33,921 bases of DNA from Verrucomicrobiota bacterium. GTDB lineage: Bacteria > Verrucomicrobiota > Verrucomicrobiia > Opitutales > Opitutaceae. The DNA lies in contig VHCI01000025.1 in assembly GCA_016871775.1 (NCBI GenBank), positions 1 to 33,921 of the forward strand. The letters are read 5' to 3'. The notes beneath the pieces were generated by a model that saw nothing but the letters and a program-made list of their open reading frames with translations, was not told the origin of the DNA and ran no database searches. Below are positions 2,137-24,774 of this stretch, piece by piece; within the stretch, counting starts at the first letter, position 1; each line of letters starts with the position of its first letter. Both the position numbers and the translations under genes were made by a program.

Positions 2137-5100
2137 GCCCCTCCCGGCCCTTCATCCTCCGGCCGGTCGCGACCAGTCTGCTGATGGTCGCGCTCTTCCT
2201 GTCGGGCATTCTCGCGTACCGGCTCCTGCCGGTCGCCGCACTGCCCCAGGTCGACTTCCCGACCATCCAGATCTTCACCTTTTACCCGGGCGCCAGCCCC
2301 GCGGTGACCGCCAGCGCCATCACCGCTCCCCTCGAGCGGCGGTTCGGGCAGATTCCTGGTCTGAACCAGATGTCCTCGACCAGCTCGAGCGGCGCCTCGG
2401 TGATCACGCTCCAGTTCTCGCTCGAGGTCTCCCTGGGCGTGGCCGAGCAGGAGGTGCAGGCCGCCATCAACGCGGCGAACAACCTGCTCCCCAACGACCT
2501 CCCCGCGCCGCCCATCTACCGCAAGGTCAACCCAGCCGACACCCCGATCATGACCCTGGCCGTCACCTCGGCCAGCCTGCCCCTGCCCCAAGTGCACGAC
2601 CTGGTCGACACCCGCATCGCCCAGAAGCTGGCCCAGATTCCCGGCGTGGGGATGGTCAGCCTCGCCGGCGGCCAGCGCCCGGCGATCCGCGTCCAGATCC
2701 ACCCCGGCGAGCTCGCCCAGCGCGGGCTAAACCTGAGCGACGTCCGCGCCGCCATCGCGGCCGCCAGCGTCAACCAACCCAAGGGCAGCTTCGACGGGCC
2801 CACGCGCACCATTCTGATGGACGCCAACGACCAGCTCCGGTCGGTGGGGGAGTTCCGCAATCTGATCATCGCTTGGCGTGACGGCGCGCCCCTCCGGCTG
2901 GGCGATGTCGCCCGGATCGAGAACGCGGCCGAGGACCGCCGCCTCGGCGCTTGGGCAGACCGCCTCCCGGCGGTGCTGGTCAACATCCAGCGGCAGCCCG
3001 GCGCCAACGTGATCGAGGTGGTCGACCGGGTGCAGGCCCTGCTCCCGCAGCTCTCGGCCACCTTGCCGGCGGCGGCCGAGCTGGCCGTGCTTTCCGACCG
3101 CACCCAGAGCATCCGCGCCTCGGTCCGCGCGGTGCAGCACGAGCTGGTCTTCGCCATTCTGCTGGTCGTGCTCGTGACCTTCCTCTTCCTCCGGAATTTC
3201 GCGGCGACGATCATCCCCAGCATCGCGGTGCCGCTGTCCCTCGTCGGCACCTTCGGGGTGATGCACCTGGCGGGCTTCTCGCTGAACATCCTCACCCTCA
3301 TGTCGCTTACTATCGCCACGGGCTTCGTGGTCGATGACGCGATCGTGATGCTGGAGAACATCGCCCGCTACCGGGAGCAGGGCGAACCGCCGCTCTCCGC
3401 CGCGCTCAAGGGCGCTGCGCAGATCGGCTTCACCCTCGTCTCGCTCACGATCTCGCTTATCGCGGTGCTGATCCCGCTGTTGTTCATGGGCGACGTCGTC
3501 GGCCGCCTCTTCCGCGAGTTCGCGATCACCCTCGCTGTGTCGATCCTGATCTCGCTGCTCGTCTCGCTCTCTCTCACGCCGATGATGTGCGCCCGGATGC
3601 TGCCGGCTCCGGACCACGGTGCCGCGGCCGCCCCCGGCTTCCTCGACGCCGTCATCGAGCGCTACGGCCGCTGGCTCGACTGGGTGCTGGAGCACCAGCG
3701 CCTCACCCTCGCCGTCACCGTTGGCACCCTCGTCCTTACCGCCCTTCTCTGGGCCGTGGTCCCGAAGGGCTTCTTCCCGGTGCAGGACAACGCCACCCTG
3801 CAGGCGGTGACGGAGGCGCCGCAGTCCGTCTCCTTCGCCACGATGGCTGAGCGCCAGCAGGCCCTCGCCGCGCGCATCCTGGAGGATCCCGCCGTCCGCA
3901 GCCTCTCGAGCTTCATCGGCGTCGACGGCACCAACACCACCCTCAACAGCGGCCGGATGCTGATCAACCTTCACCCGCATGGGGAGCGGCGGGACAGCGC
4001 CGGCGCGGTGATCGAGCGCCTTCGCGCCACCGCCCTCGCGATGCCAGGCATCTCCCTCTACCTGCAGCCAGTGCAGGAGCTGACGATCGAGGACCGGGTG
4101 AGCCGCACCCAGTTCCAGTTCACCCTGATGTGCCCCGATGAGAACCTGCTCGAGGAATGGGTGGCCGGCTTCGTCCCGCACCTGCAGCAGCAGCCGGAGC
4201 TTTCGGACGTCGCCAGCGACCTCCAGAACCGGGGCCTGCAGGCCTACGTGGAGATCGACCGGGACACCGCGAGCCGCCTCGGCGTAAGTGTGGCCGAAAT
4301 CGATGACGCCCTCTACAGCGCCTTCGGCCAGCGGCAGATCTCGACCCTCTTCACCCACACCAGCCAGTACCGGGTGGTGCTGGAGGTGGACCCGCGCCTG
4401 ACGCAGGGGCCGGGGGCGCTCGCGGGCATCTTCGTGCGCACCCGGGCCGGCCGCCCCGTGCCGCTCGCCAGCGTGGCGCGCGTGACCGAGCGGCCGACCC
4501 GCCTGCTGATCAGCCACGTCGGGCAGTTTCCGGCGGTCACGATCTCCTTCAATCTTGGGGCGGGCGCCTCCCTTGGCGACGCGGTGCGGGCGATCGAGCG
4601 CGCCGCCGTCGAGCGGGAGCTGCCCCCCGCGGTGGAGATGCGGTTCCAAGGGGCCGCGCAGGCCTTCCGCGCGTCGCTATCCAGCACGCTCCTGCTGGTG
4701 CTGGCGGCGGTGGTGACAATGTACATTGTCCTCGGCGTTCTCTACGAGAGCAGCATCCATCCGATCACGATCCTCTCGACTCTGCCGTCCGCGACGGTGG
4801 GCGCGTTGCTGGCGCTCTGGATCACGGGTCGGCCGCTGGATATGATCGCGATCATCGGGATCATCCTGCTCATCGGCCTGGTGAAGAAGAACGGCATCAT
4901 GATGGTGGACTTCGCACTGGAGGCCAAGCGGCGGGAGGGGCTGGGACCGCGAGACGCGATCCGGCAGGCGGCGCTGCTGCGCTTCCGGCCGATCCTGATG
5001 ACGACCCTCGCGGCGCTCTTCGGAGCCCTGCCGCTGATGCTTTCCACGGGTTCCGGTGCCGAACTCCGGCAGCCCCTCGGCATCACAATGGTCGGCGGCC

Positions 5101-20419: not shown

Positions 20420-22615
20420 ATGCCCAACGCCCTCGCCGACCAAAAATCCCCTTACCTCCTTCAGCACGCCGACCAGCCGGTCGAGTGGCTGCCGTGGGGC
20501 GAGGCCGCCTTCGCCCGCGCTCGCGCCGAGGACCGCCCGATCTTCCTCAGCATCGGCTATTCCACCTGTCACTGGTGCCACGTGATGGCGCACGAATCGT
20601 TCGACGACCCAGAGATTGCCGCCGCCCTCAACGCGGGCTTCATCCCGGTGAAGGTGGATCGCGAAGAGCGCCCGGATGTGGACAAGGTCTACATGACCTA
20701 CGTGCAGGCCGTGACGGGTCGCGGGGGCTGGCCGTTGAGCGTGTGGCTCACGCCCGAATTGAAGCCTTTCTATGGCGGTACCTATTATCCGCCCAAGGAC
20801 CTGCCGGCCCGACCGGGTTTTCCGCGCGTGCTCGCGGCGCTGAGCAAAGGGTGGCGGGAGGACCGCGCCACGCTGCTGGCCGAGGGCGACCGGGCGCTGG
20901 AGGCGATCCGCGGCCACATTGCTGCGGAGACCGCCCCGCCAGAGGGCGAGGACAAGCCGTTGTTCGAACGGGCCGGGACGGCCTTTGACGCGGCTCTCCG
21001 CCATGCGTTCGAGTCATTTGATCCCGAGCACGGCGGCTTCGGTGGCGCCCCCAAGTTCCCGCGCCCCGCGCAGCTCGCGTTCCTCCTCCGCGCGGCCGCC
21101 CTCCAGGACCCCGCCAGCGAGGCCGGCGCCGAGGCGCTCCGCCCCGTGACCGCCACGCTGCAGGCGATGGCCCGCGGTGGCATCCACGACCACGTCGGGG
21201 GCGGCTATCACCGCTACGCGGTCGATGGCGGCTGGTTCGTGCCCCATTTCGAGAAGATGCTCTACGACCAGGCCCAGATCGCCGTGGTCTGCCTGGAGGC
21301 CCGCCGGGCCACTGGGGACGAGCGCTACGCCTGGATGGCCCGCGACATCCTCGGCTACGTCGAACGCGACCTCACCAGCCCGGGCGGGGCCTGCTTCACC
21401 GCCGAGGACGCCGATTCCGCGGATGCCCAAGGCCACCTGACCGAAGGCGCGTTCTACCTTTGGAGCGCCGCGCAGCTCCGCGGGCTCCTCGGGGCCGATT
21501 TCCCGCTGCTCGCGGCGCATTTCGGCGTGCAGGACGAAGGCAACGTCCCCAACGAACTCGACCCGCAGGGGGAATTTCGCGGCGGCAACATTCTCGCGCA
21601 GATCCGACCCCTCGCCGCGACCGCCGCCCAGCTTCAGCTGGATCCCGCCTCGGCGAACGACCGGCTGGTGCTGCTGCTCGAGCGCCTCCGGGAGGCCCGC
21701 CGCGCCCGGCCCCGGCCCCATCTGGACGACAAGATCCTCGCCGGGCCCAACGGCCTGATGCTCTCCGCCCTTGCCCTAGCCCACCGCACGCTGGGCGACG
21801 GGGGCCGTTACCTCGCGGCCGCTACGCGCATCGCCAAATTCCTCCGCCGGGAGATGCACGACGAGGCCACCGCCACCCTCTACCGGGTCTGGCGAGCCCC
21901 CGCGCCCGCCGACCCGTGCGGCGGGCGGGGCTCCACGCCCGCCTTCGCTGAGGACTACGCCGCGGTTATTCAGGGTCTGCTCGACCTCTACGAGGCCGGG
22001 TTCGAGATCCGCTGGCTCCAGTGGGCCGAACGCCTCCAAGCGCGGATGGACGCTCGATTCTGGGACGAGGCCGCCGGGGGCTACTTCAACTCGGCCGCGG
22101 ATGATCCCTCCCTGGTCCTGCGCCTTAAGGAGGACTACGACGGCGCGGAACCGGCCCCGAGCAGCCTCGCCGCCCTCAATTTGCTCCGGCTGAGCGCCCT
22201 GTTAGGCAAGGATGCTGGGTTCCGGGAGCGCGGCGTCCGCACGATCGAGGCGTTTCGCGGCCGCTGGGAGCGGGCCCCGCACGCCGTGCCGCAGCTCCTA
22301 TGCGCATTCGAACTGGGGCTGGAGTCCCCGCGCCTCGTGGTGCTGGCCGGCGATCCGGCCGACCCCGCTTTCCAATCGCTCGCAGCGGTGGTCGCGGAAA
22401 GTTTCGGCCCGCGCCGTAACGTCGTGGCCGCTGATGGCAGCGAGGGCCAGCGCTGGCTCGCGGAACGCTCTCCGTGGCTCGCCGAGCTCCGGCCCCCGGG
22501 CGGTCGGCCGGCGGCCTTTGTCTGTGAGGACGAGCGTTGCCTGCCGCCGGTCGCGGATCCGGCCGCCCTGCGGGACCTGCTGGCGGTGCCGGCCGGGAGG
22601 AGCGAGGCGCAATGA
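20420..22615 (+). CDS. Thioredoxin-domain protein, YyaL / DUF255 family
   Basis: A 731-residue protein with the usual two-part build of this family. An N-terminal thioredoxin-like domain (about residues 1-160) begins [21 protein letters not shown] and has the C50-H-W-C53 motif in [10 protein letters not shown] long alpha/alpha-barrel resembling N-acylglucosamine 2-epimerase and six-hairpin glycosidases follows, with [31 protein letters not shown] and [20 protein letters not shown]. These are the hallmark strings of YyaL and human SPATA20. The biochemical role is unsettled. There is no signal peptide, so it is cytoplasmic. I start at the ATG at 20420 because the family motif begins right after it. 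Its stop overlaps the slyX start (ATGA). Confidence 0.92.
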
Positions 22616-22809
22616 GCGAGGACCGCCTGCTACGCCTTGAGGAGAAGATCGCGTACCTGGAGCGGCACGTCACCGCGCAGGATCGCGCGATGCTGGAGCT
22701 GACCGAGGAACTGGACGCCCTGCGTCGCGAGCTGCGGCGCGTCCGCGAGGCGAGAGCTGACGCGGGCGCGGCGCCGGAGCCGGCGGACGAGCGGCCGCCG
22801 CATTACTAA
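22612..22809 (+). CDS. slyX: SlyX family protein
   Basis: A 65-residue protein that is almost entirely one coiled coil (about residues 3-47, [20 protein letters not shown] onwards) and ends in PPHY, the conserved C-terminus of E. coli SlyX. SlyX proteins are small cytoplasmic coiled coils of unknown function. The ATG overlaps the stop of the YyaL-like gene by four bases, and GGGAGG at about 22596-22601 provides a ribosome binding site, so translation is probably coupled. Confidence 0.85.
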
Positions 22810-22839: not shown

Positions 22840-24342
22840 TCAGAACGAGGCGGTGACTTCTTGGAGGTAGCCGGGATCGAGCACCTGTTCACCCAAGGCT
22901 GAACACTCGAGCTCGTCGTTCTTGTACAAGCGAAAGCGGATCGGCCCGCCGGCCTCGGCCGTTTCCCAACGCCACTTTCCAATGGAGATGAATTGCAGCG
23001 GGACGCCGCGTTCCCAACTCAGGCCTGGCCCCTCGCCGCGAATGAACAACCGGTTGCCGATACCGATGTAGGCGGTGGCCAGCAACCGCGTCGCGCCGTC
23101 TGAAGTGAGGGTGCGTTCGACCGAAGCTCGCGCTCCGGGAGAGCTGTCCTCGATGCCGAGCTCCAGCGCCGGCTCGGGCTCCGGCCGGCGGGCGGCCCGC
23201 TTGCGCGGCAGAGCCGCTGGCGGGGGCAACTCCGGTTCGCTAGGTGCGACCATTGGGCCAAGGGCAGGTGACTGTTGCTCCGGTTCCGCGGTCTTCACCG
23301 GTTCGGACGGAGTCGCGGCGACCACGGGGCGCTCTTTTGGCGCGGGCGCTAGCGGCTCTGGCACGGCCGGGGAGGGGCCTGGCGCGGGCGCGGCGGGGGC
23401 CGTCTCGACGACCGTGGCTTTCGGCTCCCGCGCGACGGCGGGGGGAGCTGCGGGAGCAGCTTCCGCCGGTGCGGCTTCGGCCGCTTCCTCGCGGCGTGGT
23501 CGGCGCGGCTTGCGCGGGGCAGGGGTCGCGGTCTGCGGAGGCACCGCGACCGAGATCGGAGCCTCGATGACGGTCGTTGGCGCGGCAGGCGGCGGAGCCG
23601 ATGAGAGTTGGTCGGGGCCTGGATCGAAGACCTCCGGCGGTTTCCGGCTGGCTTCTCGCCGAGGAACTTCGCCTTCCGCAGCTCGGGCGGACCGGCTCGC
23701 GTGGACCTCGCGCGCGGTCCCGGATCCTTCGCGGGCGGCAGCGAGCACGCGTTCCAGCTTGGCCGCGCTGTCGGCGGCCTCGCGTTGCAGGGCCGCCACC
23801 TGTTTGGCCGCGGCGGTCTCCAGCCGGGTAAGTTCAGTGGCGGTCCGCGCCAGCTGGTTCAGGGCGGCTTCGATCCGCCCGAGCTCGCTGGTCCGCAACG
23901 CCGCGATCTCTTCCTCCAAGGCGGCCCGGGCCCCATCCTCTGCCTCGGCCAGCTGGCTTTGGAAAGCCGACACCCGTTGCTGCAGTTTTTCCGGTAACTC
24001 CTCTGCCTCGCGCAGCGTGCGGCGCGCTATTTCCGCGATCCCGTTCAGACTGCCCGTGGCGATGCTCACTTGTTGCGCGGATTCCCGCACGGTCTCGGCC
24101 AAGGCCTCGAGGGCCCGCTGCCGCTGGTCGAGCGCCTCGTTCTTCTGCCGCTCCAGCCGCGCCACTAGCGGCACCAGGCCCACCAAGACGCCCAGCAGCA
24201 CGCAGGCGACGATCGCTACCACCGCGCCGGTGGACAACGGCAGGGGGCTCGTCCACGCCACAATTGCCGCGGTGCCGAGCAACGCCAGGTCGGTGAGGAT
24301 GAAGAGCCAGGTGGGCAGGCCGGGGGACGGAGAAGACTTCAT
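22840..24342 (-). CDS. Membrane-anchored coiled-coil protein with C-terminal carbohydrate-binding-like domain
   Basis: A 500-residue protein I do not recognise by name. Order seen: two transmembrane helices (about 10-31, LPTWLFILTDLALLGTAAIV, and 38-62, STGAVVAIVACVLLGVLVGL); a long coiled coil (about 63-210) rich in A, E, L, Q and R; a disordered Pro/Ala/Glu linker (about 210-400); and a compact C-terminal domain (about 414-500). The last contains LFIRGEGPGLSWERGVPLQF, KWRWETAEAGGPIRFRLYKN and a final VTASF, a pattern similar to the immunoglobulin-like CBM20/CBM48 starch-binding fold. With both helices spanning, both ends should be cytoplasmic. The domain assignment is inference. It is convergent with slyX 30 bases away; no partner gene is obvious. 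Confidence 0.78.
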   Translation of the reverse strand: MKSSPSPGLPTWLFILTDLALLGTAAIVAWTSPLPLSTGAVVAIVACVLLGVLVGLVPLVARLERQKNEALDQRQRALEALAETVRESAQQVSIATGSLNGIAEIARRTLREAEELPEKLQQRVSAFQSQLAEAEDGARAALEEEIAALRTSELGRIEAALNQLARTATELTRLETAAAKQVAALQREAADSAAKLERVLAAAREGSGTAREVHASRSARAAEGEVPRREASRKPPEVFDPGPDQLSSAPPPAAPTTVIEAPISVAVPPQTATPAPRKPRRPRREEAAEAAPAEAAPAAPPAVAREPKATVVETAPAAPAPGPSPAVPEPLAPAPKERPVVAATPSEPVKTAEPEQQSPALGPMVAPSEPELPPPAALPRKRAARRPEPEPALELGIEDSSPGARASVERTLTSDGATRLLATAYIGIGNRLFIRGEGPGLSWERGVPLQFISIGKWRWETAEAGGPIRFRLYKNDELECSALGEQVLDPGYLQEVTASF

Positions 24343-24492: not shown

Positions 24493-24774
24493 ATGGACTC
24501 CTCAGCCTTTGTCCGGATCGAGCGGGAAGCCCCCGGCGGGGTCCGCCATTATGTCGTCCACGCCCACGATCCGCAGTTTAGCCTAGAGCTGAGCCCGGAC
24601 GATGCAGCTCCCGACCGGCGGGGGCGCGGGGTGCTGCGGCGGCTGTCCGTCCCGAATTCCTGGGCGGGCGACTACACCCGCTACGCGCGGCTGGTTTCGG
24701 CTGCGCAGGAGTTTTTCGCCCAGTCGCTGGAGGAGCCCGCCCCTAAGGCCGAGTCGCGCCGCTGGGTCCGCTGA
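24493..24774 (+). CDS. Small hypothetical protein
   Basis: A 93-residue soluble protein with no family I can name. The middle (RHYVVHAHDPQFSLELSP) reads as beta strands and the C-terminal half (RLSVPNSWAGDYTRYARLVS, AAQEFFAQSLEE) as amphipathic helices. I start at the ATG at 24493; a TTG at 24418 preceded by GGAGG would add 25 basic residues (RPRFPRLKGKTAFASALAKA) and cannot be excluded. It is divergent from the coiled-coil protein, so a shared promoter region lies at about 24343-24492. Codon use is like that of its neighbours, which supports real coding. Confidence 0.6.
   Translation: MDSSAFVRIEREAPGGVRHYVVHAHDPQFSLELSPDDAAPDRRGRGVLRRLSVPNSWAGDYTRYARLVSAAQEFFAQSLEEPAPKAESRRWVR

Follow-up and report, generated by a model that had tools for sequence, protein, structure and literature searches.

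The window analysed here, a stretch of 33,921 nucleotides from a Verrucomicrobiota bacterium of the family Opitutaceae (contig VHCI01000025.1), encodes a 500-residue protein, hereafter the long form, whose parts are listed with their coordinates in Table 1. A full-length AF2 model, built on a 46-row alignment of the window and related loci, places helices at residues 12-31 and 38-217 and strands between residues 409 and 498. From about residue 218 to about 405 there is no predicted structure, in blocks mostly of pLDDT <50, and the composition of residues 206-413 is lopsided, with 46 prolines and 44 alanines among 208 positions; from residue 411 on, the blocks have pLDDT values of 94-98. The parts are to be read singly, as the pTM of 0.31 for the whole protein makes their mutual placement meaningless. 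Every part of the layout given in the preliminary description of this DNA (a two-helix anchor, a coiled coil, seen here as a long helix, a Pro/Ala linker, and a terminal domain) is present by AF2 and composition, and the motif quoted there, RGEGPGLSW...VPLQF...RLYKND, sits within residues 435-476. A terminal domain, assigned there to residues 414-500, does exist, but AF2 sets its start nearer residue 409 than 414. Along the whole long form, no match to a Pfam or NCBIfam model passes the cut-off of that family and, judged on this protein alone, its billing as the window's best candidate for a function not yet described has been fair so far.

Table 1. Position and basis of the features discussed, in the window unless another locus is named
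Feature	Coordinates	Strand	Basis or remark
Long-form gene (membrane hairpin, long helix, linker, CBM20-like domain; 500 aa)	22840..24342	(-)	ATG-start ORF
Membrane helix 1, residues 12-31	24250..24309	(-)	AF2 helix; Kyte-Doolittle up to 1.9
Membrane helix 2, residues 38-61	24160..24231	(-)	AF2 helix 38-217; Kyte-Doolittle up to 2.9
Long cytoplasmic amphipathic helix, coiled-coil-like, residues 62-217 (predicted)	23692..24159	(-)	AF2, periodicity, positive-inside counts
Pro/Ala-rich disordered linker, residues 218-408	23119..23691	(-)	Composition, AF2
CBM20-like domain, residues 409-500	22843..23118	(-)	AF2 (alone as 414-500), Foldseek, VIA, profile-profile
Trp443 codon; aligned with W543 (A. 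niger glucoamylase) and presumably W293 (STBD1)	23014..23016	(-)	Profile alignments
SlyX-like gene	22612-22809	(+)	Directly downstream of DsbH-like thioredoxin-domain protein; convergent with long form
93-aa ORF divergent from long form	24493..24774	(+)	Relative in 25/48 related loci with enough flank
Own-genome short paralogue (L031, G000:C124)	4146-4823 (incl. 4149-4403)	(-)	Complete site-1 residues

Modelled alone as residues 414-500 from 75 aligned sequences, the terminal domain reaches a mean pLDDT of 96.3 and takes on, in the model, the antiparallel beta-sandwich of the CBM20 fold. When this model is compared with the PDB by Foldseek, the CBM20 of STBD1 ranks first (two rows, E 3.1e-4 and 6.5e-4; no other row has E <0.001), and rows 3-9 are modules of glucoamylase, GPCPD1, CBM25, and CBM41, all of the first nine being starch- or glucan-binding modules. 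From rank 10 on, unrelated proteins appear too (rhamnogalacturonan lyase, HGSNAT, DUF3823, and others), and the chains of AMPK-beta, SNF1-beta, and SEX4 rank below the first CBM20 rows. VIA-align, run again over what Foldseek had matched, returned among the 50 matches listed 47 CBM20 proteins (CGTases, STBD1, glucoamylases, a beta-amylase, GPCPD1, and amylases, the family label of some entries being our presumption) and 3 CBM25, with Z scores of 8.9-10.7, rmsd of 2.1-3.0 over 80-86 residues, and identities of 10-18%; none of these 50 is a CBM48 or AMPK chain. The preliminary description had proposed CBM20, CBM48, and AMPK-beta as the folds against which to hold a predicted structure of residues 414-500, and CBM20 supplies the top rows of the comparison, with STBD1 first in Foldseek. 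As a name for the predicted fold, "CBM20-like" is correct.

Comparison at the sequence level gives the CBM20 relationship modest backing. A Pfam search with the domain stays empty even up to an E value of 10, and Pfam CBM_20 (PF00686), by which a CBM20 is recognised, finds nothing in any of 57 genomes. Profile-profile comparison aligns CBM20 in register with a profile of both forms of the family together, namely, the long form and a short paralogue taken up below (E 2.2e-4, HH probability 45%), and with the short form by itself at E 8.7e-5 (HH probability 60%); for neither profile did any of 200 column-shuffled controls equal the match. Close long forms alone reach an HH probability of 7%, and 1 of 200 shuffles was equally good. 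A sequence search of the PDB gave 0 matches with the mixed profile and, with the short-form profile, AmyA as the best one, which is of the right kind and not significant (E 0.23). The shape of the domain could be a coincidence of small beta-sandwich folds of the immunoglobulin or E-set type, a view with which the low VIA identities, the mere pair of Foldseek rows with E <0.001, the empty CBM_20 search, and the AmyA result would all agree, but which has to contend with the starch- or glucan-binding nature of the first nine Foldseek rows and of the 50 VIA matches listed, with the in-register profile match, and with the spacing of the site-1 Trp, Lys, Trp, and Asn/Asp, which all 69 short forms retain. 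We hold such a coincidence to be very improbable.

With the long-form protein as query, 51 of 57 genomes gave a match at E<=1e-3, its own included, some of them through the domain or the paralogue alone. Many genomes have a second locus with the same domain, encoding a short protein that begins with a tail rich in Lys, Ala, and Pro and ends in the domain. Among 105 genomes of the order that are >=90% complete, a match turned up in 92: both forms in 52, the short form without the long in 22, and the long without the short in 18. The forms in this sample were told apart mainly by the length of the open frame, with exceptions made by hand, and one short entry (G371) is a contig-end fragment. The 18 genomes of the order of no more than 1.4 Mb comprise 12 with the short form only and 6 with no match. 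Across a sample of the phylum, 43 of 288 genomes matched, and all 43 come from the order of the window; 245 had no match, and the 20 of these listed belong to the same class and to other orders. A named genome collection yielded 385 relatives, of which the 80 retained bear the titles Opitutae, Opitutaceae, Opitutus, Verrucomicrobia, Cephaloticoccus, or Geminisphaera, or unspecific ones. One genome, G373 (2.3 Mb, a single contig, labelled 95% complete), matches none of four queries and is possibly of odd code or a mislabelled assembly.

Short and long forms separate in a tree of 223 distinct domains with a support of 0.977 and two misplaced rows, the sorting into forms having been made by tail charge and membrane helices with six rows re-assigned by hand. 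The two sites of CBM20 consist, in glucoamylase numbering, of Trp543, Lys578, and Trp590 (site 1) and of Tyr527, Tyr556, and Trp563 (site 2; PMC9920598; PMC10180094). Profile alignment puts Trp543 at column 30 of our domain, Lys578 at 58, Trp590 at 66, Tyr527 at 15, and Trp563 at 44. Asn595, which we take to be a further site-1 residue, falls on column 71. The aromatic binding residues on which the preliminary description made its glucan-binding proposal depend are partly in place in the window protein: W443 at the Trp543 position (site 1) and W457 at the Trp563 position (site 2) are kept, but E479 occupies the Trp590 position and I428 that of Tyr527; R471 stands at the position of Lys578.

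The same division runs through the family. Of the 154 distinct long domains, 109 have Trp at column 30, 114 Lys or Arg at column 58, 6 Trp at column 66, and 13 Asn or Asp at column 71, so that the first site-1 Trp is missing in 45 and the second in 148; an aromatic residue is found at column 15 in none and at column 44 in all 154, and Trp stands at column 46 in 141. The 69 distinct short domains all have Trp at column 30, Lys at 58, Trp at 66, and Asn or Asp at 71, and 67 of them have an aromatic residue at column 15 and 67 Trp at column 44. The site-1 triad, with Lys or Arg allowed at the second place, is complete in 6/154 long and 69/69 short domains, the window protein being among those that lack it; these counts cover distinct domains with <15 gaps, drawn from related sequences and so not independent events, and include the move of two further rows that the tree had placed in the other clade (before it, 68/70 short and 7/156 long). 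Arg22, Gly23, Asn62, and Asp63 of the domain are invariant in 30/30 rows. In the long form, the fold is kept together with around half of the CBM20 sites, and the short form, from its residues, looks like a full glucan binder.

What this implies for the long form can be argued in two directions. W443 presumably corresponds to W293 of STBD1, an equivalence that we draw from the alignment and a residue count from the chain end. In STBD1, W293 is reported to be a requirement for amylose binding (PMC4076837), and potato SBDSt2, a CBM20 without Trp590, is reported to have raised starch affinity 5-fold in a fusion (PMC9920598). With W443 kept, with W293 mattering in STBD1, and with SBDSt2 adding affinity for starch in spite of its missing Trp590, glucan binding by the long form is possible. 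Conversely, because the second site-1 Trp is absent from 148/154 long domains, whereas the paralogue keeps both Trp residues in 69/69, the long form may have lost that activity. The closest rival to a glucan-tethering function builds on this loss and supposes that the long-form domain gave up glucan for protein binding, its partner being, for example, a glycogen enzyme, the short paralogue, or the domain itself, and that the protein now serves as a membrane scaffold. Strong conservation elsewhere in the domain, at Arg22, Gly23, Asn62, and Asp63 and at the Trp of column 46, would suit a protein surface of this kind, as would the rarity of Trp at column 66 and the lack of any aromatic residue at column 15. 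Against it count the Trp at column 30 and the Lys or Arg at column 58, kept in most long domains and in the window protein too (W443, R471), and the gain in starch binding by SBDSt2 without the second Trp (PMC9920598). We regard this scaffold as a serious contender that is somewhat more probably wrong than right.

The long helix and the membrane topology bear on where the domain would act. Hydrophobic periodicity of residues 63-205 rises above shuffled sequences at periods of 3.5 (0.5% of 2000) and 3.6 (0/2000) and not at 3.3, 3.4, 3.67, or 3.7, six periods having been tried. Such periodicity fits an amphipathic, coiled-coil-like helix, but the coiled coil named in the preliminary description is not itself proven by it. 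Lys and Arg are richer after helix 2 than in the loop in 128/129 long forms and fewer in none (145 were examined and 16 dropped with a helix under the script threshold), and the predicted topology is therefore N-in/C-in. The cytoplasmic location earlier ascribed to the terminal domain holds as a prediction from these counts and the AF2 anatomy, which together give the combination of membrane anchor and cytoplasmic CBM20-like domain that characterises an STBD1-like tether. A membrane anchor and a long linker fit envelope proteins as well, and the helix has a weak likeness to DUF948 (E 0.008, under the cut-off), so the domain might bind another glycan or ligand, such as a periplasmic or cell-wall sugar or a nucleotide sugar, in an envelope role apart from glycogen. 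Since the Lys and Arg counts place the domain in the cytoplasm in all but one of the long forms counted, and the 50 VIA matches listed are alpha-glucan binders, we consider an envelope role improbable.

The reading that we put forward, at about even chances, is that the long form ties either glycogen or an enzyme bound to glycogen to the inner membrane, in the manner of STBD1. Computation gives the anatomy, the CBM20-like model fold, and the conservation across the order; to these we add, by inference, a glucan ligand, oligomerisation, and tethering, in the following manner. The N-terminal two-helix hairpin would anchor the protein in the inner membrane with its other parts in the cytoplasm, the long helix would oligomerise or dock a partner, and the CBM20-like end would dock on cytoplasmic alpha-glucan (glycogen) or a glycogen-bound enzyme, as in STBD1 and PTST, which would keep the handling of glycogen close to the membrane. 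The fold, the in-register profile match, W443, W457, and Arg471, the STBD1-like order of parts, the precedent of SBDSt2, and the glycogen genes of the genome itself speak for such a tether; the site-1 Trp losses, the few strong Foldseek rows and the unrelated proteins from rank 10 on, the low HH probabilities, the lack of covariation with glgA, and the lack of an adjoining glycogen gene speak against it.

The genome of the window encodes GlgA, GlgB, and glycogen phosphorylase, PF00534 having been set aside as a marker of glycogen synthase for being too general. Over the 105 genomes of the order, the domain and glgA do not covary (82 with both, 10 with the domain only, 10 with glgA only, and 3 with neither; Fisher p 0.20). 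This result is uninformative rather than negative because almost all genomes of the order have glycogen genes, and we dropped co-occurrence with glgA as a way to judge a link to glycogen. A search for GlgP and GlgB covered 18 of the 105 genomes; in the ten with the domain only, GlgP is present in 10/10 and GlgB exceeds the cut-off in 9/10. As a separate observation, six of the eight genomes of family f21 (G056, G182, G206, G366, G376, and G384; 96-100% complete) have no glgA over the cut-off and retain GlgB and glycogen phosphorylase, and another glycogen synthase may for this reason act in them. No glycogen gene adjoins the long form in the window, and its neighbours, encoding SlyX, a DsbH-like protein, 6PGD, and a gamma-glutamyltransferase, have no glucan link and persist only partly. 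The 93-aa ORF, read from a TTG start, matches no Pfam family over the cut-off, and its relatives lie on the strand opposite the long form in every related locus that has one.

Several known systems combine the same kinds of parts. The CBM20s of glucoamylase, CGTase, and bacterial amylases are joined to secreted enzymes; the long form shares their predicted fold (Z up to 10.7) and keeps the W543 and W563 positions, but it has no catalytic domain and its W590 and Y527 positions are not aromatic. STBD1 is reported to run from a hydrophobic N-terminus through a putative leucine zipper to a C-terminal CBM20 facing the cytosol and, when overexpressed, to bring glycogen to ER membranes (PMC4076837; PMC5358331). 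The long form resembles it in having an N-terminal membrane anchor, a long helix, a C-terminal CBM20-like domain, and, in W443, the putative W293 equivalent; it differs in having two membrane helices rather than one, in residing predictedly at a bacterial inner membrane rather than the ER, in the lack of an autophagy context, and in the missing second site-1 Trp; apart from the fold, a weak profile match is all that links the two. With the plant starch granule proteins PTST and FLO6 the long form has in common a coiled coil, in its own case a coiled-coil-like helix, and a starch-binding-type module. PTST, a scaffold with a coiled coil and a CBM48, belongs to the chloroplast stroma, carries CBM48 instead of CBM20, and has no membrane anchor mentioned in the available part of its account (PMC4339375).

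Four short proteins were checked against the histone-H1-like HC2 model: two match below the cut-off (E 2.2e-6 and 2.8e-6), and the own-genome copy and one other match nothing. A scan of viral contigs for short forms produced 25 pattern matches and no relative. The short paralogue, a putative glucan and DNA binder, pairs its predicted polymer-binding domain with a positive tail, a design for which PhaM is similar in role and which recalls PhaF, where a polymer-binding part is joined to a highly positive histone-like tail (PMC5658603), although the polymer that PhaF binds is polyhydroxyalkanoate. By this analogy, the short paralogue may tie glycogen to the nucleoid as PhaF and PhaM tie PHA granules.

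Dedicated scaffold proteins exist for PHA granules and for plant starch, and to our knowledge the spatial organisation of glycogen in bacteria has been little studied. We therefore set out, as a speculation that is on balance unlikely, a two-protein placement of glycogen in the Opitutales, in which the histone-tailed soluble CBM20-like protein would bring glycogen to the nucleoid as a counterpart of PhaF and PhaM while the long form would fix the polymer or the enzymes that act on it at the inner membrane. If true, such a system would give bacteria a counterpart of STBD1 and would be the first that we know of in bacteria to be dedicated to positioning glycogen. Among the titles and abstract openings of the open-licence papers listed, we found no description of this assembly in bacteria. 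Its parts are of known kinds; what is new is a divergent CBM20-like domain in an STBD1-like membrane layout in bacteria, which adds a divergent CBM20-like family absent from Pfam. A widespread, order-specific pair of CBM20-like proteins, one with a membrane anchor and the other with a histone-like tail, would offer a direct genetic handle on glycogen placement. Around the short form, the commonest recurring neighbour is found in 26/70 loci, mostly downstream and on the opposite strand.
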